Assembly: GCF_020171315.1 (NCBI RefSeq)
Contig: NZ_JAIUZP010000004.1
Location: 186,001 to 250,000, forward strand
Reading direction: 5' to 3'
DNA from: Pseudooceanicola nanhaiensis
GTDB lineage: Bacteria > Pseudomonadota > Alphaproteobacteria > Rhodobacterales > Rhodobacteraceae
Length of the DNA: 64,000 nt
Part shown: positions 2,151 through 62,035 of the stretch, one piece after another
Layout: every line of letters starts with the position of its first letter
Numbering within the stretch: the stretch's first letter is position 1
Notes under the pieces: model-generated
The model's database searches: none
Seen by the model: the letters and a program-made list of their open reading frames with translations, nothing else
Told to the model about the DNA's origin: nothing
Made by a program: the position numbers and the translations under genes

Positions 2151-2152
2151 GC

Positions 2153-2644: not shown

Positions 2645-2875
2645 ATGACGCAGATCCCTGCCCCTCTCTCCGCAGACGCCTGGATGCGCCATCTCTTCAG
2701 CTCCCGCGCGGCCCTGTAGGGTGCGGTCATCCGGCGGAAACTGCGCGACATCGAGCGTTACGTGGGCCGCAGCCGGTTCGAGGCAGAGCTGCGCCGCCGC
2801 GGGTTCCATGCGGTCGAAAACGCGGGACAACTCGTCATCTTCTGCAACCAGGACCCGATCCAGGTTATCTGTTGA
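2645..2875 (+). pseudogene. Small conserved-looking protein interrupted by an in-frame TAG
   Basis: Reading from ATG 2645 gives MTQIPAPLSADAWMRHLFSS..., then TAG at 2717-2719. The same frame then continues without another stop for 51 codons to TGA 2873-2875 (GAVIRRKLRDIERYVGR...RRRGFHAVENAGQ...FCNQDP). Both halves look like one ~75-residue protein family that I recall from Rhodobacterales genomes, in which no stop occurs at this point. The parsimonious reading is a nonsense mutation or a base-call error. No good restart codon with a ribosome site is visible after the TAG. The function of the family is unknown to me. Confidence 0.6.
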
Positions 2876-2892
2876 AACATCGGATGCACTTC

Positions 2893-2937
2893 CCGTTTTC
2901 TTCGAAGAAAACGGACCGGAAAATTCGAATTTTCCGG
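2893..2937. repeat. Two adjacent 22-bp perfect palindromes
   Basis: Positions 2893-2914 (ccgttttcttcg...) and 2916-2937 (ccggaaaattcg...) are each a perfect 22-bp palindrome centred on TTCGAA, separated by one base. They sit 9 bases beyond the stop of the leftward P450 gene and 17 bases after the broken small gene, so they may act as terminators for converging transcripts or as a protein-binding site. Confidence 0.75.
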
Positions 2938-2946
2938 TTCAGACCT

Positions 2947-5654: not shown

Positions 5655-5705
5655 TCTTTCCCATGAGGCTACAGATTGTTTCCGGCAAGATTAAGGCCGC
5701 AGAAT

Positions 5706-5750
5706 GGTCAGCCCATGGTGGTCGGCCGATGGTGGTCAGCCGATGGTGGC
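5706..5750. repeat. Three tandem 14-bp repeats at the ccdA 3' end
   Basis: ggtcagcccatggt, ggtcggccgatggt and ggtcagccgatggt follow each other at 5706, 5720 and 5734. The third copy contains the ccdA stop codon and last codons, so the array seems to be a local duplication of the gene's end. Confidence 0.7.
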
Positions 5751-6485
5751 GAGCGCCGGGAAGGTCTCCAGCAGCCAGAAGGAGAAGGCCGAGAAGCCGC
5801 CCGTCAGCATCAGCAGGCCCACGGTCCAGAGCAGCAGCCCCATGATGCGCTCGATCCGCTCCATGTTGCGCTTGAGCCAGGACATCGTGCCGCCCAGGCT
5901 GGGCAGGAAGGCGGCCACCAGCAGGAAGGGCACACCAAGGCCGATGGCATAGACCGCCAGCAGCGCGGTCCCGCGCGTGACGTTGCCCTCGGAGGCGGCC
6001 ATGGAGAGGATCGCGCCAAGCTGCGGCCCGATGCAGGGCGTCCAGCCGAAGGCAAAGGCCAGCCCCAGCACATAGGCCCCGAAGGCCGAACCGCCCCGAT
6101 CGCCCGCATCCATCCGCGCCTCGCGGTCGAGGAAGGGGATGCGGATCACGCCGAGGAAATGCGCGCCGAAGATCATCACCAGAACGCCCGCGACCGTGTT
6201 GAACCACTGCTGGTATTGCAGGAAGAGCAGCCCCGCCGCCGAGGCCGCAAAGCCGAGCAGCAGGAAGACGGTGGAGAGCCCCAGCACGAAGAAGAGCGCG
6301 GCCAGCAGCGGGCGCCCCCGGTCGCGGCCCTGCCCCACCTCGGCCATGGAGACCCCGGACATATACGCCAGGTACGGCGGCACGATGGGCAACACGCAGG
6401 GGCTGAGGAAGGAGATCACCCCCGCCGTCAGCGCCACGAGCATGGCGGGCAAGAGGCCCGCGTCTATGAGGTCGATCCCGAACAT
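5736..6485 (-). CDS. ccdA: Cytochrome c biogenesis protein CcdA
   Basis: 249-residue integral membrane thiol-disulfide transporter with six hydrophobic segments. CcdA passes electrons from cytoplasmic thioredoxin across the inner membrane to keep apocytochrome c cysteines reduced. Its two redox cysteines are visible in the expected contexts: C30 in FLSPCVLPIVPPYLAYMSG and C151 in GWTPCIGPQLGAIL, in the first and fourth segments. The start MFGIDLIDAG is a normal family start. No other cytochrome c maturation gene is adjacent. A 9-unit GGCTA array lies about 110 bp upstream, in the probable promoter region. Confidence 0.95.
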   Translation of the reverse strand: MFGIDLIDAGLLPAMLVALTAGVISFLSPCVLPIVPPYLAYMSGVSMAEVGQGRDRGRPLLAALFFVLGLSTVFLLLGFAASAAGLLFLQYQQWFNTVAGVLVMIFGAHFLGVIRIPFLDREARMDAGDRGGSAFGAYVLGLAFAFGWTPCIGPQLGAILSMAASEGNVTRGTALLAVYAIGLGVPFLLVAAFLPSLGGTMSWLKRNMERIERIMGLLLWTVGLLMLTGGFSAFSFWLLETFPALATIG

Positions 6486-6591
6486 GTCTTCCGATTATCG
6501 CATGTGGGCTGCCGCGTCATGTGGTGCGATGTCACAAGAGCGTTGGGTTCTGTTTCAATGGAGCCGTCCCGCCGGGCCCGCGGCTTGACTT

Positions 6592-6636
6592 GGCTAGGCT
6601 AGGCTAGGCTAGGCTAGGCTAGGCTAGGCTAGGCTA
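6592..6636. repeat. Pentanucleotide microsatellite (GGCTA)9
   Basis: Nine exact GGCTA units run from 6592 to 6636 between the 3' end of rne and the start of ccdA. A 5-bp unit outside coding sequence is unstable by slipped-strand mispairing, and the array lies upstream of leftward ccdA. Confidence 0.95.
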
Positions 6637-6671
6637 GGAGACGCGTCCCGGATGGATCGAGTCCACAAATG

Positions 6672-6703
6672 AAAACCGCCGCACCCGGTGGGGTACGGCG
6701 GTT
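6672..6703 (-). terminator. Intrinsic terminator of rne
   Basis: On the minus strand aaccgccg...cggcggtt forms an 8-bp stem (6674-6681 with 6696-6703), followed by TTTTC, about 30 bases beyond the rne stop. Confidence 0.7.
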
Positions 6704-6730
6704 CACATCATGTCGGTGCGGAAGCGAACC

Positions 6731-9619
6731 TCAGCGGCCGGCGTTCCACCAGCCGCGCCGCTTGGGCTTGGCCGGGGCCTCTTCCGCCGCGACGGGCTCG
6801 GGCTCGGGCGCCGGGGCCACGGTCTCGGCGGCGACGGTCTCCTCGACCACCTCTGCCACGGTCTCCTCGACCGGTGCTTCGACAGGGGTCTCGACAGGGG
6901 CTTCGGCCGCGGGCGCGACTTCGGCTTCTGCCGTCACCTCGACCACCTCGACGGCCGCCTCTTCGACACCTTCCGGCGCCGAGGGCACATCGGCCATCAC
7001 CGGCTCGGCCACAGCCTCAGGTTCAGCGGCCTCGGGTTCAGCGACCTCGGCCACAGGCTCCACCACGTCGGCGGGGGCTTCGGCCACGGTCTCTTCGACC
7101 GGCGCGCTGTCCTCGAGGGTCGGCGCGGGTTCGGCGGGCGCTTCGGCCACGACCTCTGCCGGGGTTTCCGACGCGGGCGCAGCCTCTGCCGGGGCTTCCG
7201 CGCCGGTTGCGGTTGCGGCCTCGGCAGCGTCGGCGGCGGCTGCCGCTTCCATGGCCTTCTTGGCACGGCTGCTGCGGCTGCGGCTGCGGGTCTTCTTCGG
7301 CTTCTCCTCGGCCTCGGGGGCCTCGGCAGCGGCTTCGGCGGTGCCCACTTCGGCCTCGCCCGCGGTCACTTCGGCGGCCTGCTCATCGAGCTTGGGCGCC
7401 TCGCCTTCTGCGGCCTCGTCCGAGGTCTCGTCCGACCCGTTCTCATCGGTCTCGCCATTGCTGCCCGAGGACTTCCGCCGACGACGCCGACGACGGCGCT
7501 TCTTCGGCTTCTGGTCGTCTTCCGACGCGGCTTCCGGCTTGGCCTCGGTCGTCGTTGCCTCTTCTTCGGCCTCTTCGACTTCGACCTCGTCGACGATATC
7601 CTCGTCTTCCTCGTCATCCATGGAGGTGGTGTCGATGGAGATCACATGCGGGATTTCGGTCACCACGCGGGTCGCGGTCTTGAACTTCTCCATGGTGAAG
7701 TCCGGGCTGACCAGCATCGGGTCGCCCTCGATGCGCACGGCCATGCCATAGCGGCCCTCGATCTGGGCGACGTGCTCCCGCTTCTGGTTCATGAGGTAGT
7801 TGGAGATGCCGACGGGCACCTTCACCAGCACTTCGCGCGACCGGCGACGGGTGCCTTCTTCCTCGATCTGGCGCAGCACGGAGAGGGCCATGTTGTCATC
7901 CGAACGGATGAGGCCGGTGCCGTGGCAATGCGAGCAGGGCTGCGTCGTGGCTTCGATCATGCCCGGACGCAGTCGCTGGCGCGACATCTCCAGCAGGCCG
8001 AAGCCCGAGATGCGGCCCACCTGGATGCGGGCGCGGTCGGTCTTGAGCTTGTCCTTCAGCTTCTTCTCGACGGCGGCGTTGTTCTTGCGCTCGTCCATGT
8101 CGATGAAGTCGATGACGATCAGGCCGGCGAGGTCCCGCAGACGCAGCTGGCGGGCGACCTCTTCGGCCGCTTCCAGGTTGGTCTTGGTCGCGGTCTCCTC
8201 GATCGAGCCTTCCTTGGTGGCCCGGCCGGAGTTCACGTCGATCGCCACCAGCGCCTCGGTCACGCCGATCACGATGTAGCCGCCGGATTTCAGCTGCACG
8301 ACGGGGTTGAACATCCCGGCGAGGTAGCTTTCCACCTGGTAGCGCGCGAAGAGCGGCAGACCGTCCTGGTAGTGTTTCACGTTCTTGGCGTGGGACGGCA
8401 TGATCATTTTCATGAAGTCCTTGGCGTTGCGGTAGCCCCGCTCGCCTTCCACCAGGACCTCGTCGATGTCGCGCGAGTAGAGATCGCGGATCGAGCGTTT
8501 GATCAGGTCGCCTTCTTCGTAGATCTTGGCCGGCGCGATGGATTTCAGCGTCAGCTCGCGGATCTGCTCCCACAGGCGCTGCAGGTATTCATAGTCGCGC
8601 TTGATCTCGGATTTCGTCCGCTTGGCACCGGCGGTGCGCACGATCAGGCCCGCGCCGGTCGGCACGTCGATCTCGGCGGCGATTTCCTTCAGCTTCTTGC
8701 GGTCGACGGCGTTGGTGATCTTGCGGCTGATGCCACCGCCACGGGCAGTGTTCGGCATCAGGACGCAGTACCGGCCTGCCAGCGAGAGGTAGGTGGTCAG
8801 GGCTGCGCCCTTGTTGCCGCGCTCTTCCTTGACGACCTGCACCAGCAGGATCTGACGGACCTTGATGACTTCCTGGATCTTGTACCGCTTGGGCCGGGGC
8901 TTGCGCGGGGGGCGGATGTCCTCGTGGTCGTCGTCGTCCGCGACGCTCTCGATCTCGCTGTCCTTCTCGGAGGCAGCCGACTTGCGGCCGCCGGACTTGG
9001 CGGAGGGGGCGTCGTCGTCGCTGTCCTCGTCCTCGTCGGAGGCATCCTCGTCCATGACGTCGTCGGAGGCCTCTGCCTCCTCCTCGTCCGCGGTGTCCTC
9101 GGAGGGTTCCTCAACCGGGGTCTCGGCGACGGTCATCATCGGCGAGGTGCCCTCGGCGATCTCGTCGACGCTGTCCTCGTCGGAGGTGTCGATCGTCTCC
9201 ATACCCTCGATTTCGCGGGTCTCGACGGCATCGTTGGCGTCCGTCTTGGCCGCCTTCGAGCGCGAGCGCGAGCGCTTGGGCTTGGATTTCTTCTCTTCCT
9301 CGGCCTCGTCGCGCGCCTTCAGTGCCTCGGCATAGGCGCGCTCTTCCTCCATCAGGGCCTCACGGTCCGCGACGGGGATCTGGTAGTAATCCGGGTGGAT
9401 TTCCGAGAAGGCGAGGAAGCCGTGACGGTTCCCGCCGTAGTCTACGAAGGCCGCCTGAAGCGACGGTTCGACCCGGGTTACCTTTGCGAGGTAGATGTTG
9501 CCGGCGAGCTGCCGCTTGTTTTCGGACTCAAAGTCGAATTCCTCGACCTTGTTGCCGTCCACCACCACGACGCGGGTTTCCTCCGCGTGCGTGGCGTCGA
9601 TAAGCATTTTCTTTGCCAT
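6731..9619 (-). CDS. rne: Ribonuclease E/G family endoribonuclease
   Basis: 962 residues. The N-terminus MAKKMLIDATHAEETRVVVVD is the standard alphaproteobacterial RNase E start and supports ATG 9619 over upstream in-frame codons. An S1 RNA-binding region (residues ~35-290) is split by a long insertion (~95-240) made of Asp/Glu, Ser and Arg-Lys blocks. The catalytic core follows (GYIVIGVTEALVAIDVNSGR, DLAGLIVIDFIDM with the Mg-binding aspartates), then a zinc-link CSHCHG (C562, C565) that would tie two subunits together. Beyond ~residue 690 the protein is low-complexity Ala/Glu/Pro-rich with one basic patch (KKRRRRRRRRK), the presumed degradosome and RNA-binding tail. It initiates bulk mRNA decay and rRNA/tRNA processing. 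Both DNA strands are open here because of the repetitive codon use. Confidence 0.96.
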   Translation of the reverse strand: MAKKMLIDATHAEETRVVVVDGNKVEEFDFESENKRQLAGNIYLAKVTRVEPSLQAAFVDYGGNRHGFLAFSEIHPDYYQIPVADREALMEEERAYAEALKARDEAEEEKKSKPKRSRSRSKAAKTDANDAVETREIEGMETIDTSDEDSVDEIAEGTSPMMTVAETPVEEPSEDTADEEEAEASDDVMDEDASDEDEDSDDDAPSAKSGGRKSAASEKDSEIESVADDDDHEDIRPPRKPRPKRYKIQEVIKVRQILLVQVVKEERGNKGAALTTYLSLAGRYCVLMPNTARGGGISRKITNAVDRKKLKEIAAEIDVPTGAGLIVRTAGAKRTKSEIKRDYEYLQRLWEQIRELTLKSIAPAKIYEEGDLIKRSIRDLYSRDIDEVLVEGERGYRNAKDFMKMIMPSHAKNVKHYQDGLPLFARYQVESYLAGMFNPVVQLKSGGYIVIGVTEALVAIDVNSGRATKEGSIEETATKTNLEAAEEVARQLRLRDLAGLIVIDFIDMDERKNNAAVEKKLKDKLKTDRARIQVGRISGFGLLEMSRQRLRPGMIEATTQPCSHCHGTGLIRSDDNMALSVLRQIEEEGTRRRSREVLVKVPVGISNYLMNQKREHVAQIEGRYGMAVRIEGDPMLVSPDFTMEKFKTATRVVTEIPHVISIDTTSMDDEEDEDIVDEVEVEEAEEEATTTEAKPEAASEDDQKPKKRRRRRRRRKSSGSNGETDENGSDETSDEAAEGEAPKLDEQAAEVTAGEAEVGTAEAAAEAPEAEEKPKKTRSRSRSSRAKKAMEAAAAADAAEAATATGAEAPAEAAPASETPAEVVAEAPAEPAPTLEDSAPVEETVAEAPADVVEPVAEVAEPEAAEPEAVAEPVMADVPSAPEGVEEAAVEVVEVTAEAEVAPAAEAPVETPVEAPVEETVAEVVEETVAAETVAPAPEPEPVAAEEAPAKPKRRGWWNAGR

Positions 9620-10568
9620 GTGATCCGTTTGCATGGCGCAACATCCCCGCCTCCCCCGAAGGTGGCGGGCGAAGAATGGCTGCGGCATGTCTGTCAGGGG
9701 CGACGGCGGCAATGTCCGAGGGGAGGCCCGCAAGGGTCTCACATCCGCTCAGGTATTCTCTTGCACGCCTCATCGCGTTTCTTCTCCGGTGACCGATCGT
9801 TTGATCGCCGATCACCCGTTGCAGTGCCCGCTGTCCGTTTCCGGGACGGGCGTTACTATGGCCCTATGGGCCCAATCGGTCTGTCCTGACCGGCGAGCCT
9901 TGTGGCCCTGCCGTTTCAGTCCAGCGAAACTCATGTCGGAGCGCCACTCAGAGGGCGCAAATCCGTTCTGAGAGCATAGAGTGTGGGCGGCATACAATAC
10001 AATGGTGAAAATGCAGCGAAGCTTTGTGGCGCGGAGGCAGCAGTCGCGTTTCGCGCATAAGTTGTGCAAGACGACCTGTGGTGCGGGGGCGTCGGAGGGA
10101 TCGGTGGAGGGATGCGGACCTTCCAATGTCGCGTAACGCCCTGAGGGAACAGGCAACTCCCCTGCCCCTTGGTCGAGGCTGCACAAGTTCTGCCCGTTTC
10201 GCGGCGGCTGTATGGCCCCGCTGATCTTTCGGCGGCGGCCAAATGGAATGGCTCCGCAGCCCACTCCTCCGGCCATTGACGAACGCCTGCGCGGAACAAG
10301 GCCGCAGGCCGCCGCGCATCGCCGGCGCGCCCCCACGCGGCGACGATTTGGTGAGACTGGGCAGTCCCTCGAGAGGACACGACATGCTTGGCTGCCATAA
10401 ACTGCCCGCCAGAGAGCGTTGGATCGCCTCCGCGCGCGCCGTCGATGCGCGGCTTCGGGGGAGCGGCACCATTGGAAGGTGATCCCCGTTCAATGGAGAA
10501 GGCCGGGGCACATCATAGCACCCCGGCCCCCGATCCGTGTCAGCCGTCAGGCCCCCTTGAGCCCAAGC
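9620..10568. other. Long non-coding stretch upstream of rne
   Basis: About 950 bp between the divergent 5' end of rne and the 3' end of dctD hold no frame that reads like protein; the open frames present are Arg/Pro-rich and lack family text. Part is probably the rne 5' UTR and promoter. Short hairpin-forming runs are visible (gatcgtttgatc near 9798, and the 10501-10528 inverted repeat). Compositionally it contains more A/T than its neighbours around 9940-10030. The N-acetylmuramoyl-L-alanine amidase gene that I recall next to rne in some relatives is not here. Confidence 0.55.
10497..10530 (-). terminator. Probable terminator of dctBD
   Basis: ggccgggg...ccccggcc at 10501-10508 and 10521-10528 forms an 8-bp GC stem, 40 bases past the dctD stop, followed on the minus strand by a weak TTCTCC. 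Confidence 0.45.
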
Positions 10569-11903
10569 TCAGAGATAATCCGACCGCTGCAGCCCGTACT
10601 TCGCCATCTTCTCGTTCAGCGTCCGGCGCGGCAGGCAGAGCTCTTCCATCACCGAGGCGATGGAGCCCTTGTGGCGACGCATCGTGTTGTCGATCAGCAT
10701 CCGCTCGAACGCCTCGACGTATTCCTTCAGCGGCTTGCCCTCGGTGGTCATCACCGGCTGCATCTCGTCGTTGTCCGACATCAGCAGAGACGCGATGGAG
10801 CCCGACCCGCGGCGCGACTGCAGCACCGCGCGTTCGGCCACGTTGATCAGCTGGCGCACGTTGCCCGGCCAGGGCGCCTGCAACAGCTGGGCGGCCTCCT
10901 GCGCGGTCACCTGCGGTGCCTCGCAGCCGTATTCCTCGCTGAACTGCTCCGAGAGCTTGGTGAAGAGCGTCAGGATGTCCTCGCCCCGCTGGCGCAGCGG
11001 CGGCACGGTGATGCGCAGCGCGGCCAGACGGTAGTAGAGATCGGGGCGCAGCGCGTCCTCGCAGGTCTTGTCCTGCTCCTGCATGTTGCAGATGGCAACG
11101 ATCCGGGTCTCGGCCGGGGTGCCCTGCTCGTTGATCGCGCTCAAGAGCTTGGCCTGAAGGCTTTCGCTCAGGGCCTCGACGTCCTCCAGCACGAGGGTGC
11201 CGCCGCGGGCCTCCTCGATGGCGGGCAGCTGGGTGTCCTCGGGCAGCATCGGGCCGAAGAGCCGCTTTGACAGCTGGTCCTCGTCGATGGCCGCGCAGGA
11301 GACCAGCACGAACTTCTTGCCCGCCCGCGCGCCGACCGCGTGCAGCGCATGGGCCACCAGCGTCTTGCCGGTGCCGGTCTCACCGTCGATCAGCACGTGA
11401 CCGTCGGCCTGACCGAGGTCGAGGATGTCTTCCTTCAGGCGCTCCATCACCGGCGAGGTGCCGATCAGCTTGTTCATGATCTGGCCGCCGTCCGACAGCT
11501 CGCGCCGCAGGGCGCGGTTGTCCATGGTCAGGCGGCGGGCATTGGCCGCCTTCTTGGCCAGTTCGTTCATCCGGTCGGGATTGAACGGCTTCTCGAGGAA
11601 GTCGAAGGCCCCGATGCGCATGGCCTCGACCGCCATGGGCACGTCGCCGTGCCCGGTGATCATGATCACCGGCAGGGCGCTGTCCGAGCCCATCAGCTTC
11701 TTGAGGAACTGCATCCCGTCCATGCCGGGCATCTTGATGTCGGAGATCACGATGCCGGGGTAATCGGGCCCCAGTTTCTTAAGCGCCTCCTCGGCGCTCG
11801 AGAAGGTTTCGGTGTCATAACCGGACAGGGCCAGCCACTGGCTGATGGACTGGCGCATGTCCTGTTCGTCGTCGACGATGGCGATCTTCATGCTTTTTTG
11901 CAT
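10569..11903 (-). CDS. dctD: DctD-like response regulator lacking the sigma-54 contact loop
   Basis: 444 residues in the DctD/NtrC layout. The receiver domain has acidic pair D11-D12, phosphorylation site D55 (VISDIKMPGMDG) and K105. An AAA+ domain follows with intact Walker A GETGTGKT (174-181), and the C-terminus is a Fis-type helix-turn-helix (SIASVMEELCLPRRTLNEKMAKYG). The GAFTGA loop that contacts sigma-54, expected between LFG (~216) and GGTL (~234), is absent: the stretch reads LFGPMLPEDTQLPAIEEARGG. The Walker B text is LVLEDVEAL rather than LFLDEI. It may therefore act with another sigma factor, as Rhodobacter capsulatus NtrC does. The start MQKS has AAGAAG just upstream, 9 bases after the dctB stop. 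DctB/DctD normally control C4-dicarboxylate uptake; no dctP/Q/M is in view. Confidence 0.88.
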   Translation of the reverse strand: MQKSMKIAIVDDEQDMRQSISQWLALSGYDTETFSSAEEALKKLGPDYPGIVISDIKMPGMDGMQFLKKLMGSDSALPVIMITGHGDVPMAVEAMRIGAFDFLEKPFNPDRMNELAKKAANARRLTMDNRALRRELSDGGQIMNKLIGTSPVMERLKEDILDLGQADGHVLIDGETGTGKTLVAHALHAVGARAGKKFVLVSCAAIDEDQLSKRLFGPMLPEDTQLPAIEEARGGTLVLEDVEALSESLQAKLLSAINEQGTPAETRIVAICNMQEQDKTCEDALRPDLYYRLAALRITVPPLRQRGEDILTLFTKLSEQFSEEYGCEAPQVTAQEAAQLLQAPWPGNVRQLINVAERAVLQSRRGSGSIASLLMSDNDEMQPVMTTEGKPLKEYVEAFERMLIDNTMRRHKGSIASVMEELCLPRRTLNEKMAKYGLQRSDYL

Positions 11904-11912
11904 ATTCTTCTT

Positions 11913-13706
11913 TTACTCCGCGGCCTCGATATCTTCACTCAAGATAGGCAGTTGCAGTTCGAAAACAGCCCCGCCCCCACTTGCGTTCCGTGCAATGAGG
12001 CGTCCGCCGAACTCGTTCACGATCCCGGAAGAGATCGCAAGCCCCAGCCCGACACCGTCGCCGGGCTGCTTCGTGGTGTAGAAAGGCTCGAAAAGGTTCT
12101 CGAGATTTTCGATCCCGTGGCCGTTGTCACGCACCGTGACCGTGGCCGTTTCCCCCGCGGAAAGCAGGATGTCGATCTCTGGCTCATCCACGGTTTCCGT
12201 GGCGTCCAGAGCGTTCCGCAGGAGGTTGATCAGGACCTGTTCCAGACGCACCCGGTCGGCCATGACCAGCACCGGGCGATCGGGGATCGCGCGGTTGATC
12301 TTGACCTGCCGCTGGCGCAACTGGGGTTCCATCATGGCGAGTGCGGAATTGAGCGCATCGCCAACGATTACAGGGGCAAAGGCGTCACCGCCCTTGCGCG
12401 CATAGCTCTTGAGCTGCTTGGTGATCGCGCCCATCCGTTCGATCAGGTCGTCGATCCGCTGGAAGGAGGAGAGCGCCTCGTCCGGGCGGTTCCGGCGCAG
12501 CAGCAGCGAGGCCCCGGCGAGGTAGGTCTTCATCGCGGCGAGCGGCTGGTTCAGCTCGTGGCTGACGGCGGCCGACATCTCGCCAAGCGCGGCCAGCTTG
12601 GAGCTCTGCTCCAGCGTCTGCTCGGCTACGACGAGGCTTTCCTGCATCCGTTCCCGCTCGGCGATTTCCCGCTGGAGGCGTTCGTTCAGGGCGCGAAGAT
12701 CCGCCGACTCCCGCTGGAAGAGCGCCATGCGCAGCGCCGTCTTGCGGCTGAGCGCATAGAAGGCGAGCGCCAGCAGGATGGCAAATCCCATGATTTCGAG
12801 CGCCAGAACGCCGTTCACCCGCTCCCGGATCGAGGCATAGGTGGTGAAGGAGGTGATCTGCCAGCCCCGGAACGGGATGCGCGAGGAGACCCGCATCACC
12901 GCCTCGCCCTGCACGTAGGCATCAGCGGGCAGCGCGGTCCAGTCGGCGGTGGCCTGAAGGGCGCGTTCGATGGCGGTGTCGGGCGGGTCGCGGGTCAGCG
13001 CCTCGGCCTCGGTCCGGCCGCGCCAGCGGGGTTCGGTGGCGAGGATGATCTTGCCGGTGCTGTCCACCACGAGGACCGCATCCGAGATGCCGGCCCAGGC
13101 CCGTTCGAATTTCTGCAGGTCGACCTCGACCACGATCACGCCAACGACGTTGGACTGGCTCTCGATCCGGCGCGAATAGGTGAAGCGGTAGCCGCCCGAT
13201 TCCCGCTCCAGCGTCGAGAAGACCGTCCCGTTCGAGCGCAGCGCGTCGACGAAATAGGCCGCGGTGCGGTGCTGTTCGCCCAGCCGGTTGCGGTCCGTCG
13301 CGGCCACGGTGCGCCCGTCGCGGTCCAGCAGCATCAGCGAGGCCGCCCCGATTTCGTCCACGAAGGAGATCAGCCGCTGGGTCGACTGGGAATAATCGCC
13401 GGAGTTCAGCGCGTTGATCAGCGCCGCGTCGCGGGCCAGCAGCTGCGGCACGATGGAGTTCCGGCGCAGCTCGCTGACGAGGTTGCCACCGTAGAGCGCC
13501 AGCCGCAGCTCCGCCCGGTTGCGGGTGTTGGAGGTGAAGCGGTCCGTCAGCATGGAGTTGGTCACGTAGACCACCACCGCCGCCAGCGCCACGAGAGCCA
13601 GCAGCGCCAGCCGCGTCCGCCAGCTGATGGCCCGGCCTGACACCGGGCGTCGGGAGTCCCCTTGCGCCATAGGCTCCAATTTACTTGGCTCCGCGTCCTT
13701 GCTCAA
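11913..13706 (-). CDS. dctB: C4-dicarboxylate sensor histidine kinase DctB
   Basis: 597 residues. A transmembrane segment at ~31-48 (RLALLALVALAAVVVYVTN) is followed by a ~230-residue periplasmic double-Cache domain, a second segment near 295-313 (VLALEIMGFAILLALAFYAL), a coiled linker and the kinase core. The phosphorylated residue is H383 in AVSHELNQPLAAM, with an asparagine box (LLRNALDATE) and glycine boxes (DNGHGIENL, GVGLGLAIS). This is the DctB layout, which senses succinate, fumarate or malate in the periplasm. The gene precedes dctD by 9 bases in one operon. An acidic, Pro-poor N-terminal cytoplasmic tail of ~25 residues is longer than the minimum. Confidence 0.92.
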   Translation of the reverse strand: MSKDAEPSKLEPMAQGDSRRPVSGRAISWRTRLALLALVALAAVVVYVTNSMLTDRFTSNTRNRAELRLALYGGNLVSELRRNSIVPQLLARDAALINALNSGDYSQSTQRLISFVDEIGAASLMLLDRDGRTVAATDRNRLGEQHRTAAYFVDALRSNGTVFSTLERESGGYRFTYSRRIESQSNVVGVIVVEVDLQKFERAWAGISDAVLVVDSTGKIILATEPRWRGRTEAEALTRDPPDTAIERALQATADWTALPADAYVQGEAVMRVSSRIPFRGWQITSFTTYASIRERVNGVLALEIMGFAILLALAFYALSRKTALRMALFQRESADLRALNERLQREIAERERMQESLVVAEQTLEQSSKLAALGEMSAAVSHELNQPLAAMKTYLAGASLLLRRNRPDEALSSFQRIDDLIERMGAITKQLKSYARKGGDAFAPVIVGDALNSALAMMEPQLRQRQVKINRAIPDRPVLVMADRVRLEQVLINLLRNALDATETVDEPEIDILLSAGETATVTVRDNGHGIENLENLFEPFYTTKQPGDGVGLGLAISSGIVNEFGGRLIARNASGGGAVFELQLPILSEDIEAAE

Positions 13707-54990: not shown

Positions 54991-55851
54991 TCACTCGTAT
55001 TTCGCGCCATGCTCCAGCATCTGCGGCAGGCCGATCACCTCGTTCAGCTCGTCGAAAACCGCCATCCGCTCCTTGAAGGGCGCGTTGCTTCCGTTCTCCT
55101 TGAGCGAGGCGTAATACGCCTGCCCCTGCCGCAGCATCGCCCGCGCCACGCCGCCCGGGAAGATCACCACCCGGAAGCCCCGGTCGTGCAGCTCCTGCGC
55201 CGAGCCCATGGGCGTCATGCCGCCCTCGACCATATTCGCCAGCAGCGGGATGCGCGCGGCGAAGGTCTTGGCGATCACCTCCATCTGCTCCAGCGAGCGC
55301 GGCGCCTCGATGAAGAGCACGTCGGCCCCGGCCTCCACGTACATCTCTGCCCGCTCCAGCGCGGCGTCGAAACCCTCGACGGCGATGGCATCGGTCCGGG
55401 CGATGATCTGGAAGCCCTCGGACTTCCGCGCGTCCACGGCGGCATGGATCTTGCCCACCATCTCGGCGGCGGGGATCAGCTTCTTGCCCGCGAGGTGCCC
55501 GCAGCGCTTGGGGAAGCTCTGGTCTTCCATCTGGATCGCCTGCGCGCCCGCGCGCTCGAAGCCGCGCACCGTGCGCTGCACGTTCAGCGCATTGCCGAAG
55601 CCGGTGTCCCCGTCCACGATCATCGGCAGGCCGACGCGGTCGGTGATCAGCTCCACGGTAGAGATCACCTCGGAGACGGAGACCAGCCCGATGTCGGGCC
55701 GCCCCAGCCGGGTGTAGGCGATCGAGGCACCGGAAAGGTAGAGGCAGTCAAAGCCCGCCTGCTCGGCCAGCAGCGCGGTAAAGGCGTCATAGACGCCGGG
55801 GGCCACGATGCCGCGGGCGGGATCGGCCAGAAGGGTCTTGAGAGAGGTCAT
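54991..55851 (-). CDS. Methylisocitrate-lyase-like C-C lyase (ICL/PEP mutase family)
   Basis: 286 residues, the usual length of PrpB-type enzymes. Barrel text VAPGVYDAFTALLAEQAGFDCLYLSGASIAYTRLG, metal-binding D80-G-D82 (IVDGDTGFGN), E109-D110 (QMEDQ) and the mobile-loop catalytic motif K115-R-C117-G-H (FPKRCGHL). The KRCGH cysteine marks a C-C bond lyase acting on a 2-hydroxy acid (2-methylisocitrate, isocitrate or 2,3-dimethylmalate) and argues against a PEP mutase. Products would be pyruvate or succinate plus a carboxylate or glyoxylate. It overlaps the GntR gene in ATGA and belongs with the divergent TctCBA-LeuCD locus; the substrate is probably the hydrated product of that hydratase. Confidence 0.85.
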   Translation of the reverse strand: MTSLKTLLADPARGIVAPGVYDAFTALLAEQAGFDCLYLSGASIAYTRLGRPDIGLVSVSEVISTVELITDRVGLPMIVDGDTGFGNALNVQRTVRGFERAGAQAIQMEDQSFPKRCGHLAGKKLIPAAEMVGKIHAAVDARKSEGFQIIARTDAIAVEGFDAALERAEMYVEAGADVLFIEAPRSLEQMEVIAKTFAARIPLLANMVEGGMTPMGSAQELHDRGFRVVIFPGGVARAMLRQGQAYYASLKENGSNAPFKERMAVFDELNEVIGLPQMLEHGAKYE

Positions 55852-56702
55852 CGGTCTGCTCCGGTCGCGGTGTCCTTGGTGGTCCAGATTTGCGCCGCCT
55901 TCGTCTGGCTGCGGTCGTATTCCATCTCGTGTTCGTAGGTGTCGGGCCGGTAGAGCCCGTTGATGTATTCCACCACTGCCCCGGCATCGTCGAAGACGAG
56001 GCGGCGGACGGAAAGCAGCGCCTCGCCCGGCTCGATCCGCAGCAGATGCGCCACCTCGGGCGTGGCCAGCTTGGCGGTGATCGCCTGCCGGGCCGAGGCG
56101 ATGGGATGACCCGCGCGCTCGATCAGGCGCAGGAGCGGCGTGCACTGCATCTCCTCCGGCGTGAAACTGCGCCCGATGGGCTCGGGCAGCCATGTGGTCA
56201 GGTGGCTGAAGGGCACGCCCTCGTGGCTGCGCACCCGGACGGCGCGCTGCATCACGGTGCCATGGGGCACCTGCATCGCGTCGCAGACCTGCGGCGGGGC
56301 GATGACATAGGTCAGGTCGATCAGCTCCACGTCGGTCTGAAGGCCAAGCGCGATCAGGTTCTCGATATTGCCCGAAAGGCTGGCCCCCACGGGCGAGGGA
56401 CGGCTGTCGCGCCGGGCAAAGGTGCCGCGCCCGCGCTGCCGTTCGACCCGGCCCTCCTGCGCCAGACGGTCCATCGCCTTGCGGATCGTGATCCGCGAGA
56501 CCTCGAATCGATCCGCAAGCGCCAGCTCCCCCGCCATGGGTTCCACGTCGGTATAAACCCCGTCTTCGATCTCCTGCCTCAGAATCAGGTAGACGCGGTG
56601 GTGCTTGGGCCAGAGGCTTTCCTCGCCCGAGGCGGCGCCCCCAAAGGAAGCGGACCCCGTCACGACGTTGCCCGAAGGCCGGTTACGCGGCTGTTCTGCC
56701 AT
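55848..56702 (-). CDS. GntR/HutC-family regulator
   Basis: 284 residues. A GntR winged helix at ~35-105 (YLILRQEIEDGVYTDVEPMAGELALADRFEVSRITIRKAMDRLAQEGRVERQRGRGTF) and a UTRA effector domain at ~115-275 (VSHLTTWLPEPIG-type text, LLRIEPGEALLSVRRLVFDDAGAVVEYINGLYRPD). The HutC/UTRA group binds small acids or sugars and represses local catabolic genes. It overlaps the lyase gene by 4 bp and is divergent from the tctC gene, with a palindrome candidate in between. Confidence 0.92.
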   Translation of the reverse strand: MAEQPRNRPSGNVVTGSASFGGAASGEESLWPKHHRVYLILRQEIEDGVYTDVEPMAGELALADRFEVSRITIRKAMDRLAQEGRVERQRGRGTFARRDSRPSPVGASLSGNIENLIALGLQTDVELIDLTYVIAPPQVCDAMQVPHGTVMQRAVRVRSHEGVPFSHLTTWLPEPIGRSFTPEEMQCTPLLRLIERAGHPIASARQAITAKLATPEVAHLLRIEPGEALLSVRRLVFDDAGAVVEYINGLYRPDTYEHEMEYDRSQTKAAQIWTTKDTATGADR

Positions 56703-56770
56703 GGCTCTTCCTCAGATTTCCTCCCGTTGACGGCGATTGTTAACCGGAAGTTGATCAGCGTCCAACCCCA

Positions 56771-56792
56771 AATGTATTATTGACATGACATT
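56771..56792. promoter_or_regulatory. Candidate GntR operator and promoter region before tctC
   Basis: aatgt...acatt frame a 22-bp imperfect palindrome (56771-56775 and 56788-56792) around tattattgacatg. A TTGACA hexamer (56780-56785) lies inside it and would place the operator over the -35 of a rightward promoter. Confidence is low because only the outer 5 bases are symmetric. Confidence 0.4.
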
Positions 56793-56864
56793 AAGACTTG
56801 ATAGCTTTCAGGCCATGCGGGCCACGGGGTCCGTCCCGGAATTGGCCGGATATGGGAGGATACC

Positions 56865-57875
56865 ATGCTGAAATTCACCGGCGCATCGCGCCGCCGCTTC
56901 ATCTGCACCGCCGCCGCATCGCTGGGCCTTGCCGGCGTCACGCTGACCGGCGCACAGGCCGCCGACGCCTGGCCCGAGGACCCGATCACCATCGTGGTGC
57001 CCTTCAAGGCAGGCGGCTCGGCCGACCGGATGGCCCGCACCCTGTCGGAGCCGCTCTCCGAAGAGCTCGGCGTGCCCGTGGTGGTGGAGAACCGGCCCGG
57101 CGGCGCAGGCGGCCTCGGCGCGACCTATGTCGCCCGCCAGTCCAAGCCCGATGGCAACACGCTGCTGCTGATGCAGGCGACGCCCTACCTCGCCAACGCG
57201 ATCCTCGTGGGCGGCGCCCCGGTGAAATGGGAGGACTTCAAGTTCCTCAACGCCCAGTGGAACGACTACGCCATCGTCGCCGTCCACAACGACAGCCCCT
57301 ACGAGACCTTCGACCAGTTGGTCGAGGCGATGAAGGAGCCCGGCAAGGTCTCCTCGGGGATCATCTACGGCAACGGCGGCCACCTGCAGACCCTCGTCGC
57401 GATGGAGGCCCTCGACATTCCCGCCGACAACGTGCGCTTCGTCACCTATGACGGCGGTGCCCCGCTGCGCACGGCCCTTGCCGGCAACCAGGTCGACTTC
57501 GAGGTCATCGCGGCCCGCGGTGCCGCCTCGATCATGGACAGCCTGCGCGTCCTCGCCGTGGTCAACGACAACGATCCCGACGGGCTCGGCGCACCGCTGC
57601 TGAACGACGCACTGGTCTCTCTCGGGGCCGAGGCGCAGCCGATCATCGGCGGCAACATCACCGGCCTGCTGATCCCCGCCGCCTTCGAGAGCGAGTATCC
57701 CGACCGCTATTCCAAGCTGGTCGCGGCCTATGAAACGGTGGTGACCTCGGACGCCTACAAGGACGCCGCGAAACAGGCCGGCCTCGGCGCGGACTGGGTC
57801 GGCCCCGAGGCCAGCCAGAAGATGGTCGACGACGCCTATACCGCGCTCGAAGCGCTCAGCGACGTGGTGAACTGA
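56865..57875 (+). CDS. tctC: TctC/Bug-type extracytoplasmic binding protein
   Basis: 336 residues. A signal region with SRRRFICTAAASLGLAGVTLTGAQA may use Tat or Sec export. The mature protein has the Bug family opening ITIVVPFKAGGSADRMAR, then VVENRPGGAGGLGATYVA, which binds the carboxylate group of the substrate, and a second lobe (NIRFVTYDGGAPLRTALAGNQVDF-type text). Such proteins catch citrate-like or other carboxylates for tripartite tricarboxylate transporters. It starts the tctCBA-leuCD-like operon; the substrate is not determined, but the lobe motifs are of the mono/dicarboxylate-type class. Confidence 0.92.
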   Translation: MLKFTGASRRRFICTAAASLGLAGVTLTGAQAADAWPEDPITIVVPFKAGGSADRMARTLSEPLSEELGVPVVVENRPGGAGGLGATYVARQSKPDGNTLLLMQATPYLANAILVGGAPVKWEDFKFLNAQWNDYAIVAVHNDSPYETFDQLVEAMKEPGKVSSGIIYGNGGHLQTLVAMEALDIPADNVRFVTYDGGAPLRTALAGNQVDFEVIAARGAASIMDSLRVLAVVNDNDPDGLGAPLLNDALVSLGAEAQPIIGGNITGLLIPAAFESEYPDRYSKLVAAYETVVTSDAYKDAAKQAGLGADWVGPEASQKMVDDAYTALEALSDVVN

Positions 57876-57960
57876 GGCCGCCCGAAAGCGCCGCCACATG
57901 TGACGACCAAGGGTGGGGCCCCGCGGGCCCTGCCCCACCCTCCACCGCTGGACGCACGAC

Positions 57961-58476
57961 ATGACTGACGCCACCTCCACCCCTCCGGTCGCCCCCGAAA
58001 CGCAAGGCGGTCCGACCCAGAGCGATCCTGCGCCGCGCCGCAACTGGGGCGCCCTCGTCTTCGCCCTCGTCCTCGCCGCCGCCCTCGCCTTCTATGCCTG
58101 GAGCGTGATGGGCGTGGCCCGCGGCCTGACGGATTACCTGCTGATCCTGCCCGCCGCGGTGATCGGCGTGGCCGCCGCCCTCTGGGCCGGGATCGCCGAT
58201 CTGGCCCCGCTCAAGGGTCTGGCCCAGATCACCCGCCGCCCGCTGCGCGAAGAGACCAAGGGCATCGCCCTGCTGGTGCTCACCGGGGTCTATGCCTGCC
58301 TGCTGCCCTGGATCGGCTTCGACGTGGGCACCGCTGTCTTCATCGCCCTCGCCCTGATCATCCAGGGCGAACGCAGCTTGTGGAAGCTGGCCCTGGCCGC
58401 CGTGCCCGGTGCCGCGCTGATGACATGGATTTTCACGGACCTGCTGATGGTCCGCCTGCCGGTGCTGCTCTTCTGA
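57961..58476 (+). CDS. tctB: TctB-type small permease subunit
   Basis: 171 residues. After a ~28-residue Pro-rich cytoplasmic tail come four hydrophobic segments (GALVFALVLAAALAFYAWSV; LTDYLLILPAAVIGVAAALWAG; GIALLVLTGVYACLLPWIGFDVGTAVFIALALII; LALAAVPGAALMTWIF), as in TctB. It supports TctA in tripartite tricarboxylate transport. It begins 85 bases after tctC and ends 36 bases before tctA, inside one operon. Confidence 0.9.
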   Translation: MTDATSTPPVAPETQGGPTQSDPAPRRNWGALVFALVLAAALAFYAWSVMGVARGLTDYLLILPAAVIGVAAALWAGIADLAPLKGLAQITRRPLREETKGIALLVLTGVYACLLPWIGFDVGTAVFIALALIIQGERSLWKLALAAVPGAALMTWIFTDLLMVRLPVLLF

Positions 58477-58512
58477 GCCGCGTCGGATGACCACTATCGG
58501 GACACGACCCAG

Positions 58513-60024
58513 ATGATCGACCTTTCCGCCTTCTCCGCCGCCCTTTCCCTGCTGGGCAGCGATCCGCTGGCCTGGCTTGTGGTGATCCCCGGCCTGTTCA
58601 TCGGGCTGGTCTTCGGGGCGATCCCGGGGCTTTCCATCTCCATCGCCATGGCGGTCTTCCTGCCCGCCACGCTTTACATGGACTTCCTGCCCGCGATCCT
58701 CTTCCTGACCGCGATCTTCACCGGCGGCGGCTTCGGCGGCGCGGTGCCCGCGATCCTGATGAACATCCCCGGCACCTCCTCCGCCGTGGCGACCGCCTTC
58801 GACGGCTACCCGATGTCGAAGAAGGGCCAGCACGGCGAGGCGCTCGGCGCGGGGCTCGTGGCCTCGGCCGTGGGCACGCTCTTCGGCTACATCCTGTTGA
58901 TGTTCATCGTCTCGCCGGTGGCCACATGGGTGCTGATGCTGGGCCCGACCGAGATGCTGATCGTCGCGATCTGGGGCCTGCTGCTGATCGCGGTGCTGAA
59001 CGACAGTTCCATCGCCAAGGGCCTTGCCGCAGGCATCCTCGGCATCCTGATCAGCACCATCGGCTATTCGGACACCGGGCTGATGCGCGGCACCTTCGGC
59101 TCGATGTACCTGCTCGATGGCATTCCCGCGATCCCGGCGCTGATCGGCCTCTTCGCCGCTTCCGAGCTGATCAACATGGCGGGCCGCGACTACCTGATCG
59201 CCGACCGCGAGATGCGCAAGATGAAGCTGAAGCCGATCCTCAAGGGCGCGGGCGACACGATGCGCGGCTGGCCGCAGGTGCTGCGCGGCTCGGCCATCGG
59301 GACGCTGATCGGGATCATCCCCGGCGTGGGCGCCTCAGTCGCCAACCTCGCCTCCTACGCCGCCACCAAGCGGCTATCCAAGGAGCCCGAGACCTTCGGC
59401 AAGGGCAACCGCGAGGGCGTCGTCGCCTCCGAGGCCGCCAACTCCTCCTCCGAGGGCGGCGGCATGGTCACCCTGCTGGCGCTCGGCCTGCCGGGCGGCG
59501 CGGGCACCGCGATCCTACTAGGCGCCTTCGCCATGCATGACGTCACCGGCGGCCCCCGCTTCATCTCCGAGAACACGGATATCGTCTATGCGCTGATCCT
59601 CGGGAACATCGCGCAGGCGATCCTGCTGCTGGGGGTCGGGCTGGTCTTCGTCTTCCTCGCCTCCTCGATCGTGAAGATCCGCCTCAGCTACCTGATCCCC
59701 TACGTGCTCTCGGTCTCGATGATGGGCACCTATGCGATCACCGGCTCCATCGTCGGGCCGCTGACCGTGGCGGGCGCGGGCGCGCTCGGCTGGATCATGC
59801 GGCGCTACGGCTACCCGGTGACGGCCACCGTGGTGGGCCTGCTGATCGGCCCCATGGCCGAGGGCGAGCTGACCCGCTCGTGGCAGATTTCCGGCGGCGA
59901 CCCGGCCTTCATCCTGACCCGCCCGATCACCATGGTGATGCTGGTGCTGCTGATCCTCATGCTGCTGGCGGTCCTCGTCGGCAAGCGGATGAGCCGTCAG
60001 ACCGCCCCCGTCATCGCCGAATAA
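58513..60024 (+). CDS. tctA: TctA-type large permease subunit
   Basis: 503 residues, the standard TctA length. Long hydrophobic blocks contain the two signature loops GAIPGLSISIAMAVFLP and GIIPGVGASVANLASY, which bracket the two halves of the protein. The first half has IPGTSSAVATAFDGYPM, another TctA hallmark. It forms the transport channel with TctB and uses an ion gradient, not ATP. It is 11 bases upstream of the leuC-like gene. Confidence 0.95.
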   Translation: MIDLSAFSAALSLLGSDPLAWLVVIPGLFIGLVFGAIPGLSISIAMAVFLPATLYMDFLPAILFLTAIFTGGGFGGAVPAILMNIPGTSSAVATAFDGYPMSKKGQHGEALGAGLVASAVGTLFGYILLMFIVSPVATWVLMLGPTEMLIVAIWGLLLIAVLNDSSIAKGLAAGILGILISTIGYSDTGLMRGTFGSMYLLDGIPAIPALIGLFAASELINMAGRDYLIADREMRKMKLKPILKGAGDTMRGWPQVLRGSAIGTLIGIIPGVGASVANLASYAATKRLSKEPETFGKGNREGVVASEAANSSSEGGGMVTLLALGLPGGAGTAILLGAFAMHDVTGGPRFISENTDIVYALILGNIAQAILLLGVGLVFVFLASSIVKIRLSYLIPYVLSVSMMGTYAITGSIVGPLTVAGAGALGWIMRRYGYPVTATVVGLLIGPMAEGELTRSWQISGGDPAFILTRPITMVMLVLLILMLLAVLVGKRMSRQTAPVIAE

Positions 60025-60035
60025 GGAGAGCCCGG

Positions 60036-61421
60036 ATGTCCCCTCACCACACGGCCCCCCGCACCGCCATCGCCAAGATCTGGGACAGGCACCGCGTCCT
60101 GACGCAGGACGGCACCGATCTGCTCTATATCGACCGGCATTACCTGCACGAGGGCTCGCACCACGCCTTCGCCCGCCTGCGCGAGACCGGCCGCGAGCTG
60201 CGCCACCCGGAGCTGACCTTCGGCGTGGCGGATCATTACGCCCCCTCCAGCCCGCTGCGGGCGACAGAGACGACGGCCACGATGATCGACCGGCTGAAAC
60301 GCAACGCCAGCGACTTCGGCATCGACAGCTTCGGCATCGGCGATCCCCGGCGCGGGATCGTCCATGTGGCGATGCCGGAACAGGGCCTCACCCTGCCCGG
60401 CGTGACCGTGGTCTGCGGCGACAGCCACACCGCGACCCATGGCGCCTTCGGGGCCTTCGCCTTCGGCATCGGCGCCTCCGAGGTGGCCCATGTGATGGCG
60501 ACCCAGACGCTCTGGCAAAAGCCCGTGCCCGTCATGCGCATCCGCGTCACCGGCCGCCTGCCCGCAGGCACCACGGCCAAGGACCTAGCCCTTGCGATCA
60601 TCTGGAAGATCGGCACCGGCGGTGCGACGGGTCATGCGGTGGAATACGACGGCGCGGCCATTGCCGCGCTTTCGATGGAAGAGCGCATGACGCTCTGCAA
60701 CATGACCATCGAAATGGGCGCACGCTCGGGCTTCGTGCCGCCGGACGAGACGACCTTCGACTGGCTCAAGGGCCGCCCCATGGCGCCCGCGGGCGACGAC
60801 TGGGAGGCGGCGGTGGCCGAGTGGCGCGGGCTGACCGCCGACCCGGGCGCCGTCTATGACCGCGAGGTCGAACTGGACGCCGCCGAGGTCGCCCCGATGG
60901 TCACATGGGGCACAAGCCCCGAGCAGGTCGCCCCCGTCGATGGCGCGATCCCCGCGGACGCCAACGGCGACTCGCTGGGCTACATGGGGCTGGAGGCCGG
61001 CGCGCCGATCACCGGTATCACCGTGGACCGCGCCTTCATCGGCAGTTGCACCAACGGGCGGCTCTCGGACCTCAAGGCCGCTGCCGCGGTGCTGGCGGGG
61101 CGCAGCCTTGCCGTGCCGCTGCTGGTCTCGCCCGGCTCCGACGACGTGGCCCGGCAGGCCGAAGAGCTTGGCATCGCGGATATCTTCCGCGCGGCCGGGG
61201 CCGAGTGGGGTGCGAGCGGCTGTTCGCTCTGCGTCGGCATGAACGGCGATCTGGTGGCTTCGGGCGAACGCTGCGCCTCGACCTCGAACCGCAACTTCCG
61301 TGGCCGTCAGGGCCCCGGCGCCCGCACCCACCTGATGAGCCCGCAGATGGTGGCCGCCGCCGCCGTCACCGGACGGATCAGCGATGCCCGCGCGCTGCTG
61401 GCAGAGGAGACCAAGGCGTGA
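60036..61421 (+). CDS. LeuC-like large hydratase subunit (aconitase superfamily)
   Basis: 461 residues, close to the 466 of LeuC. All [4Fe-4S] cysteines are present: VVCGDSHTATHGAFGAFAFGIG (near residue 130), GSCTNGRLSDLKAAA and GCSLCVGMNGD near 395-405. The substrate-binding text FRGRQGPGARTHLMSP is also kept. With the small subunit next door it should carry out reversible hydration of an unsaturated diacid, as isopropylmalate isomerase, dimethylmaleate hydratase or a citraconase does. Its place between a tricarboxylate transporter and a methylisocitrate-lyase-like gene argues for a catabolic rather than leucine-synthesis role. GGAGAG precedes the ATG. Confidence 0.86.
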   Translation: MSPHHTAPRTAIAKIWDRHRVLTQDGTDLLYIDRHYLHEGSHHAFARLRETGRELRHPELTFGVADHYAPSSPLRATETTATMIDRLKRNASDFGIDSFGIGDPRRGIVHVAMPEQGLTLPGVTVVCGDSHTATHGAFGAFAFGIGASEVAHVMATQTLWQKPVPVMRIRVTGRLPAGTTAKDLALAIIWKIGTGGATGHAVEYDGAAIAALSMEERMTLCNMTIEMGARSGFVPPDETTFDWLKGRPMAPAGDDWEAAVAEWRGLTADPGAVYDREVELDAAEVAPMVTWGTSPEQVAPVDGAIPADANGDSLGYMGLEAGAPITGITVDRAFIGSCTNGRLSDLKAAAAVLAGRSLAVPLLVSPGSDDVARQAEELGIADIFRAAGAEWGASGCSLCVGMNGDLVASGERCASTSNRNFRGRQGPGARTHLMSPQMVAAAAVTGRISDARALLAEETKA

Positions 61422-62035
61422 AACCGATCAAGACCCTCTCTGGCCCCGCCGCCGCCCTGCCCCGCGCCAACGTCGACACCGATCAGATCATCCCGGCCCG
61501 TTTCATGAGCCGCTCGCGCACGGATGGCTACGGCGACCAGTGCTTCCACGACATGCGCTTTGATCAGGACGGCGCGGCCAAGGCCGACTTCCCCCTCAAC
61601 GCCCTGCCCGAGGGGCCGACGGTGCTGGTGGCGGATGACAACTTCGGCTGCGGCTCCTCCCGCGAGGCGGCGGTCTATGCGCTGCTGGATTACGGCGTCA
61701 GCGCCGTCATCGCCCCGAGTTTCGCGGATATCTTCCGCTCGAACTCGGGCAAGAACGGCCTGCTGACCATCGCCCTGCCGCCCGCCACGGTGCAGGCGCT
61801 GCTGGCGAAACTGGCCGAGGCACCGGGCACGCCCGCGCAGGTCGACCTGCCCGCGCAGCGCGTCACCATCGGCAACGAGGTCTTTGCCTTCGAGATCGAC
61901 CCGCGGCTGAAGCACCGGCTGGAAAACGGGCTCGACGATCTCTCGGCCACCTTGCAGGACGCCGACCGGATCGCGGCGTTCGAGGCGTCCTATTTCGGCG
62001 CCCGCCCGTGGATCAGGCCCCGCAAGGCAGGCTGA
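61418..62035 (+). CDS. LeuD-like small hydratase subunit
   Basis: 205 residues from GTG 61418, overlapping the large-subunit stop in GTGA. NVDTDQIIPARFM is the standard N-terminal signature, and DNFGCGSSREAAVYALLDYG replaces the usual GSSREHAPWAL of isopropylmalate isomerases (H-A-P-W becomes A-A-V-Y). That change alters the active-site lining and suggests another substrate. The protein completes a two-subunit hydratase. It is the last gene of the operon and is followed by a bidirectional terminator at 62066. Confidence 0.84.
   Translation: MKPIKTLSGPAAALPRANVDTDQIIPARFMSRSRTDGYGDQCFHDMRFDQDGAAKADFPLNALPEGPTVLVADDNFGCGSSREAAVYALLDYGVSAVIAPSFADIFRSNSGKNGLLTIALPPATVQALLAKLAEAPGTPAQVDLPAQRVTIGNEVFAFEIDPRLKHRLENGLDDLSATLQDADRIAAFEASYFGARPWIRPRKAG

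Follow-up and report, generated by a model that had tools for sequence, protein, structure and literature searches.

The locus at positions 54991–62035 of the window, by which we mean the whole stretch of 64,000 nucleotides analysed here from a contig of Pseudooceanicola nanhaiensis (genome 4.82 Mb in 30 contigs), raises the question why a LeuC- and LeuD-like hydratase pair is encoded next to a tripartite tricarboxylate transporter (TTT), a GntR regulator and a lyase of the isocitrate lyase (ICL) family. Does the pair serve leucine synthesis, or the catabolism of an imported acid, and if so, of which one? Our comparisons suggest that an imported maleate-type acid is probably broken down here by hydratase-lyase catabolism. 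We give roughly even chances to the fuller reading of an inducible catabolic locus in which TctCBA would import the acid, LeuCD would hydrate it, the lyase would split it and GntR would exert control, with glutarate as the most likely carboxylate. Gene content, tree position and the neighbourhoods of relatives were seen directly; the reactions, the substrate and the mode of regulation are all inferred from them.

Gene calls and family scans found seven open reading frames where a preliminary description of this DNA had placed them, with the lyase and GntR genes on one strand and the TctC, TctB, TctA, LeuC and LeuD genes on the other:

54991–55851, minus strand: lyase of the ICL/PEPM superfamily with KRCGH (PEP_mutase 159 bits, cut-off 31.5; TIGR02317 301 bits)
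55848–56702, minus strand: GntR/UTRA regulator (PF00392 and PF07702), upstream of the lyase gene
56773–56798, plus strand: predicted promoter- or operator-like site TGTATTATTGACATGACATTAAGACT in the divergent gap, with a putative role only
56865–57875, plus strand: TctC solute-binding protein (PF03401 64.7 bits)
57961–58476, alternative start 57913, plus strand: TctB (PF07331 41.4 bits)
58513–60024, plus strand: TctA large permease (PF01970 403 bits)
60036–61421, plus strand: LeuC-like hydratase large subunit of the AVY group (PF00330 516 bits, scanned from 60030; placed by the LeuCD tree)
61418–62035, plus strand: LeuD-like small subunit of the hydratase, marked by AAVY and the loop PARFMSRSRTDGYG (PF00694 94.4 bits; alignments)

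The GntR and lyase genes overlap by 4 bases, as do the LeuC and LeuD genes, and a gap of 162 bp separates the two divergent operons. The adjoining TctC, TctB and TctA all score above their Pfam cut-offs and make up a complete tripartite tricarboxylate transporter. The locus lies between a UvrD-like helicase and a nucleoside-type ABC system (names read from the sequences) and therefore looks self-contained, as had been proposed.

By score alone the hydratase genes would be labelled leuCD, since both products exceed the curated cut-offs (580 bits to TIGR00170, cut-off 560; 181 bits to TIGR00171, cut-off 116), and these scores would fit a spare leucine-biosynthesis pair that adjoins a TTT system by chance. 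The preliminary description had argued that the change from HAPW to AAVY in LeuD makes an isopropylmalate isomerase unlikely, and that a strain lacking any other LeuCD would overturn this. A second, canonical LeuCD is present on contig C1 of the same genome (TIGR00170 789 bits, TIGR00171 265 bits) and clusters with those of Phaeobacter and Rubellimicrobium, as would suit a member of the Rhodobacterales. In the alignment its LeuD has HAPW where the window LeuD has AAVY, and PKQFLKTIKRTGLG in place of PARFMSRSRTDGYG, a stretch which we take to be the specificity loop of small subunits. HAPW, the loop PKQFLKTIKR and the position as the strain's sole LeuCD, which together would mark a 3-isopropylmalate isomerase, are thus not found for the window pair. 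Because of the separate canonical LeuCD, the AAVY motif and the changed loop, a function in leucine synthesis is unlikely; motif, loop and tree position put the pair in a catabolic group, and we rejected the biosynthetic role on these grounds. A spare leucine pair placed here by chance is accordingly very improbable, and the earlier argument from the motif is upheld.

The tree was calculated from 46 chosen concatenated LeuCD pairs with support from the Shimodaira-Hasegawa-like approximate likelihood ratio test (SH-aLRT). A branch with SH-aLRT 98 separates the AVY-type LeuCD from the others, and the pairs of the window, of Tistrella mobilis plasmid pTM2 and of genome G443 form one group (SH-aLRT 95). 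From a search of 198 genomes of the family we took 14 neighbourhoods of this second kind of LeuD, 13 of them with a callable LeuD, where the motif is AAVY in 12 cases and AAAY in one. In most of these neighbourhoods LeuD has LeuC, GntR and TRAP transporter genes for company (no TRAP genes were seen in the stretch of one of them, L060), and the divergent side encodes a tautomerase-like protein, HyuB, HyuA and an isochorismatase-type hydrolase, together with a lyase close to that of the window where the stretch reached that far. Another 85 LeuD loci that we inspected comprise five chosen among 40 plasmid matches and the best 80 among the matches listed in a LeuD scan of genome contigs, most of which were canonical. 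[AG]AVY occurs in 13 of the 85, and for 11 of these the stretch also encodes a lyase or HyuAB-hydrolase; of the other two, a Neorhizobium locus has its lyase just past the stretch end and L086 has none. Such genes were seen in none of the 72 loci without [AG]AVY. The survey of orthologous neighbourhoods that had been proposed as a check thus finds AVY-type LeuCD usually in the company of lyase orthologues, HyuAB and a cysteine hydrolase, which suggests that genes labelled leuC and leuD can be catabolic, with [AG]AVY in LeuD as the mark by which to recognise them.

The same association is seen from the side of the lyase. The nearest NCBIfam model is prpB (TIGR02317), whose cut-off of 354 bits the window lyase does not reach, so that it does not pass as PrpB by this score; a fungal 2,3-dimethylmalate lyase (PDB 3fa3) matches it at 176 bits. 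In 385 genomes of the class, with at most six candidates scored per genome, matches of at least 55% identity were found in 45 other genomes, the next ones reaching at most 51%. We took 40 stretches covering 41 of the 46 matches of at least 55% (five were left out). LeuCD of either type is present in 24 of the 40, HyuAB in 17 and PuuE-like hydrolases in nine; one or the other hydrolase occurs in 25, and LeuCD together with either in 21. Among 20 control stretches around lyase paralogues (at most 51%) the corresponding counts are 5, 2, 2, 4 and 0, three TTT-LeuCD-lyase loci (L231, L236 and L247) included. Hardly any genes were called in L065, L236 and L263 by the gene finder; for L236 and L263 we relied on tblastn only, and L065 was excluded. 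Two more pairings of LeuCD with an ICL-family lyase lie in the window's own genome. One (L049, G000:C7:140000-158000, 1648–10806) combines LeuC, LeuD (AAVW) and the lyase with an HpaB-like monooxygenase, a flavin-reductase-like protein, a polyamine-like ABC system (some names by eye) and a class V aminotransferase nearest pyridoxamine-pyruvate transaminase, below cut-off; it is perhaps another N-heterocycle route. The other (L050, G000:C1:48000-66000, 7313–12402) is a third pairing, of a short (Hac/Dmd-like) LeuCD with a lyase, beside kinase-like and class III aminotransferase-like genes (some names by eye).

Two alternative modules accompany this type of hydratase and lyase. One consists of HyuAB (hydantoinase/oxoprolinase, Pfam) and an isochorismatase-family (cysteine) hydrolase, the other of polysaccharide-deacetylase-family proteins nearest the allantoinase PuuE, mostly two, with another isochorismatase-family hydrolase; in 10 loci whose PuuE-like match reaches at least 40%, HyuAB is absent. 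HxnM, a fungal cyclic imidase, is described as kin of a Pseudomonas putida cyclic imide hydrolase and of PuuE-like proteins (PMC9304392). The hydrolases of the relatives may, by their gene content, act on cyclic imides. Imide opening followed by amide hydrolysis would leave a dicarboxylic acid, which is what the hydratase and then the lyase would need; that two different imide-opening modules occur in this setting suggests a disubstituted maleate as the substrate of the hydratase. A hydantoin or ureide as HyuAB substrate was set aside by reasoning, because two C-N hydrolyses of such a compound leave no dicarboxylic acid. In one open-access library we found no paper that joins imide-opening genes with LeuCD and a lyase. 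A flavin adenine dinucleotide (FAD) enzyme, flavocytochrome-c-like and with tricarballylate dehydrogenase among its NCBIfam relatives, is encoded in 25 of 62 loci; it is speculation that it handles the dihydro form from a reduced ring D.

What the second product might be is indicated by the closest relatives of the hydratase. On Tistrella mobilis pTM2 the gene order is GntR, HyuB, HyuA (found by tblastn, missing from the plasmid gene table), hydrolase, acyl-coenzyme A (CoA) dehydrogenase, CoA-transferase, LeuC and LeuD. The dehydrogenase matches solved glutaryl-CoA dehydrogenases (GcdH) at up to 620 bits (next kind 243), and the CoA-transferase scores 533 bits to the succinate-glutarate CoA-transferase model (next model 295). 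The order in G443 is HyuB-HyuA-hydrolase-CoA-transferase-LeuC-LeuD with GntR and lyase adjoining, and the CoA-transferase encoded between the hydrolase and LeuC genes scores 513 bits. One stretch of Burkholderia plantarii plasmid p1 unites a PuuE-like module, a short-type LeuCD, the FAD enzyme, the lyase (62%), electron-transfer flavoprotein, a GcdH-like protein (735 bits) and a CoA-transferase (542 bits); this plasmid is not an unbiased sample because it was picked for being named by both searches within 6 kb. On Azospirillum plasmids named by both searches the two genes lie far apart. The window's own genome encodes, elsewhere, a GcdH-like protein 69% identical to that of Tistrella and a CoA-transferase of 591 bits. 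Since both closest LeuCD sisters, and B. plantarii likewise, have a CoA-transferase gene nearby, the split may yield pyruvate and glutarate.

If a PrpB-like lyase releases these two products, the acid should be 2-(2-carboxyethyl)-3-methylmaleate, one CH2 longer than 2-methylaconitate. Hematinic acid is the carboxyethyl-methyl-maleimide left by oxidation of chlorophyll, heme or bilins, and its ring-opened form is this very acid, a methyl-homoaconitate. We thus propose that TctCBA imports a 2,3-disubstituted maleate-type acid, most likely opened hematinic acid; the LeuCD-like Fe-S enzyme would hydrate its double bond, the hydroxy acid so formed would be cleaved by the ICL-family lyase to give pyruvate and a carboxylate, and GntR would sense the acid and control both operons from the single gap. 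The carboxylate, most likely glutarate, would be converted to glutaryl-CoA for further metabolism by enzymes encoded elsewhere in the genome. That the substrate is opened hematinic acid and the products are pyruvate and glutarate is a tentative identification, to which we give somewhat less than even odds. The same reserve applies to the wider proposal that the locus and its relatives represent a bacterial hematinic acid route of imide opening by HyuAB or a PuuE-like imidase, amide hydrolysis, hydration by AVY-type LeuCD as a methyl-homoaconitate hydratase, methyl-homoisocitrate cleavage to pyruvate and glutarate, and glutaryl-CoA formation, which is possible yet falls short of being likely. 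With regard to the preliminary description, the comparative evidence supports a catabolic hydratase and ICL-family lyase beside a GntR gene, and the type of chemistry it had in mind; the acids it named (citraconate, mesaconate, itaconate, dimethylmaleate) are less well supported, as the relatives point to imide-derived disubstituted maleates, and the closest of them to glutarate as a product and so to a C8 tricarboxylate.

TTT systems classically transport tricarboxylates, and opened hematinic acid, being one, would suit such an importer. A TctC search in 385 class genomes (at most five candidates scored per genome, E 1e-50 or better) found five other genomes with such a TctC, 40–71% identical to that of the window. 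Three of these genes stand beside LeuCD and a lyase, and one (G212) beside two lyases and an aconitase-like gene; that of G443 (71%, the closest in the genome samples) has no such genes nearby, the lyase-LeuCD-HyuAB cluster of this genome being on another contig. The LeuDs of the three loci, with QAVW, AAVF and AAAF, fall outside the AVY type and make up a group of their own together with L230. Among plasmids, that of Roseivivax marinus (TctC 70%) carries a lyase-GntR//TctCBA block like that of the window, at 73, 62, 70, 45 and 76%; Skermanella mucosa (TctC 41%) has GntR//TctCBA-LeuC-LeuD-lyase and Roseibium (TctC 38.5%) lyase-GntR//TctCBA-AcnA. Lyase or hydratase neighbours were not seen beside the TctC of three weaker relatives of the phylum sample, of the genome's own C5 paralogue or of Vibrio pelagius (38%). 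TTT uptake for such a pathway, which the preliminary description had considered new, is not unique to this locus: four of the five class relatives, and Skermanella and Roseibium likewise, have TctC beside a lyase of the ICL family and a hydratase of the aconitase family. The divergent gap holds only short inverted repeats; its 26-base site at 56773–56798 before TctC shares 24 of 26 bases with the G443 TctC site and a 13-base core with that of R. marinus. Several related gene arrangements were noted in passing. Ebo genes (EboA-domain protein, EboE, UbiA-family, TatD-family) adjoin the R. marinus TTT block (L291, 12109–17273), and Rieske-type and amidohydrolase-like genes (names by eye) stand beside the TTT-LeuCD-lyase cluster of G292 (L231, 9312–10866). 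In the window's own genome two TTT systems surround CoA-transferase, citrate-lyase-beta-like and amidohydrolase-like genes (names by eye; L265, 3366–12397). A further LeuCD-TTT combination, TctC together with a HAVW-type LeuCD, was found in three Variovorax loci: L078, which has LeuB too, L104 and L117.

A number of observations weigh against the proposed hematinic acid pathway. No imide-opening hydrolase or half-amidase gene is present in the window locus, which is not itself a cyclic-imide cluster, and the closest proteins of the genome are a HyuB of at most 40% and PuuE-like proteins of about 31–32%; the strain would therefore take up an acid whose ring other organisms or chemical reactions had opened. 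Glutarate genes do not adjoin the locus, and among the lyase stretches GcdH of at least 70% occurs in two of 40 (one genus) and CoA-transferase of at least 60% in one of 40, with none of either in the 20 controls. All CoA-transferase matches stay under the NCBIfam cut-off of 750 bits, and NCBIfam gives the dehydrogenases no GcdH name, a label that comes from PDB similarity. LeuCD, HyuAB and PuuE-like genes are all absent from 12 of the 40 lyase stretches, some of which end at contig ends, while others, such as L201, L206 and L220, do not. The Tistrella lyase is on pTM1 with no LeuCD beside it, the pTM2 operon has no lyase, no LeuCD was found in the R. marinus stretch, and the LeuCD branch of the window is long (1.08). 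Finally, the 26-base site, present at three TctC promoters, is absent from two gaps of the G443 imide cluster (L196), so that an operator link between the TTT system and the imide cluster is not established.

The same chemistry would also accommodate a small unsaturated diacid of C5–C6 (or C7), such as citraconate, dimethylmaleate or methylethylmaleate, which would yield pyruvate or 2-oxobutyrate and acetate, propionate or butyrate. Most imide clusters have no glutarate genes in the stretch, and 12 members of the lyase clade have NMVEGG where aligned PrpB chains have N(L/M)TEFG; set against this are the glutarate-type CoA-transferase at both nearest LeuCD sisters and the classical substrates of TTT systems. 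We regard a small diacid as unlikely, though a serious candidate. That prpB is the nearest lyase model, and that related TTT genes lie beside AcnA and a lyase in Roseibium and, in G212, near two lyases and a gene resembling aconitase, would fit an aconitate with or without a methyl group (methylcitrate or citrate type), cleaved by a PrpB-like 2-methylisocitrate lyase to pyruvate and succinate. The window lyase, however, falls under the prpB cut-off, and the Roseibium and G212 lyases are nearer to the genome's C7 paralogue (41–49%) than to the window lyase, which makes aconitate improbable. A homoaconitate/homoisocitrate route to glyoxylate and glutarate would account for the glutarate genes and also for the Hac-like type of LeuCD seen at 21–22 of 62 loci. 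It leaves the HyuAB and PuuE-like hydrolases unexplained, since the cyclic imide of homoaconitate is to our knowledge not a natural compound, and we consider it a little more improbable still.

The imide-ring-opening and glutarate genes that accompany some of the nearest relatives of the locus make chlorophyll or heme fragments a possible food source. About 10^12 kg of chlorophyll is synthesised and degraded each year, and senescent leaves and lake sediments are reported to contain hematinic acid and maleimides (PMC7318184); hematinic acid is a breakdown product of chlorophyll and also arises from bilirubin (PMC7318184, PMC12860425). A limited search of the open-access library found no published bacterial pathway for the consumption of such single-ring pigment fragments. 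If the proposal is true, the genes described here are a testable set for such use of chlorophyll or heme fragments.

Among known systems, Eubacterium barkeri reportedly uses the dimethylmaleate hydratase DmdAB and dimethylmalate lyase in nicotinate fermentation. As there, an aconitase-family heterodimer would be followed by an ICL-family lyase to give pyruvate and a carboxylate, an analogy drawn in the preliminary description and supported by our comparisons; unlike that system, the window locus has its own importer and regulator and a long LeuCD type, and its relatives are associated with the opening of imides and the use of glutarate. The petal death protein would be a precedent for ethylmethylmalate cleavage; none of the papers listed by our literature search dealt with it. 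The PuuE-like or HyuAB proteins and isochorismatase-family hydrolases of the relatives resemble the cyclic imidase HxnM and amide hydrolase HxnN of Aspergillus nidulans (PMC9304392), of whose imide-opening genes the window strain, in contrast, has no close copies. The itaconate cluster of Cupriavidus necator, beside which lies a TctC gene of unknown function, likewise joins branched-acid catabolism with a TTT component; it differs in its CoA-ester chemistry, and the excerpt of the source names no LeuCD or ICL-family lyase (PMC12290011). The end of the methylcitrate cycle, hydration of 2-methylaconitate and cleavage by PrpB, offers the same reaction types and the nearest lyase model, and differs from the window locus in that the lyase here scores under the prpB cut-off and the predicted acid is one CH2 longer, with glutarate in place of succinate.

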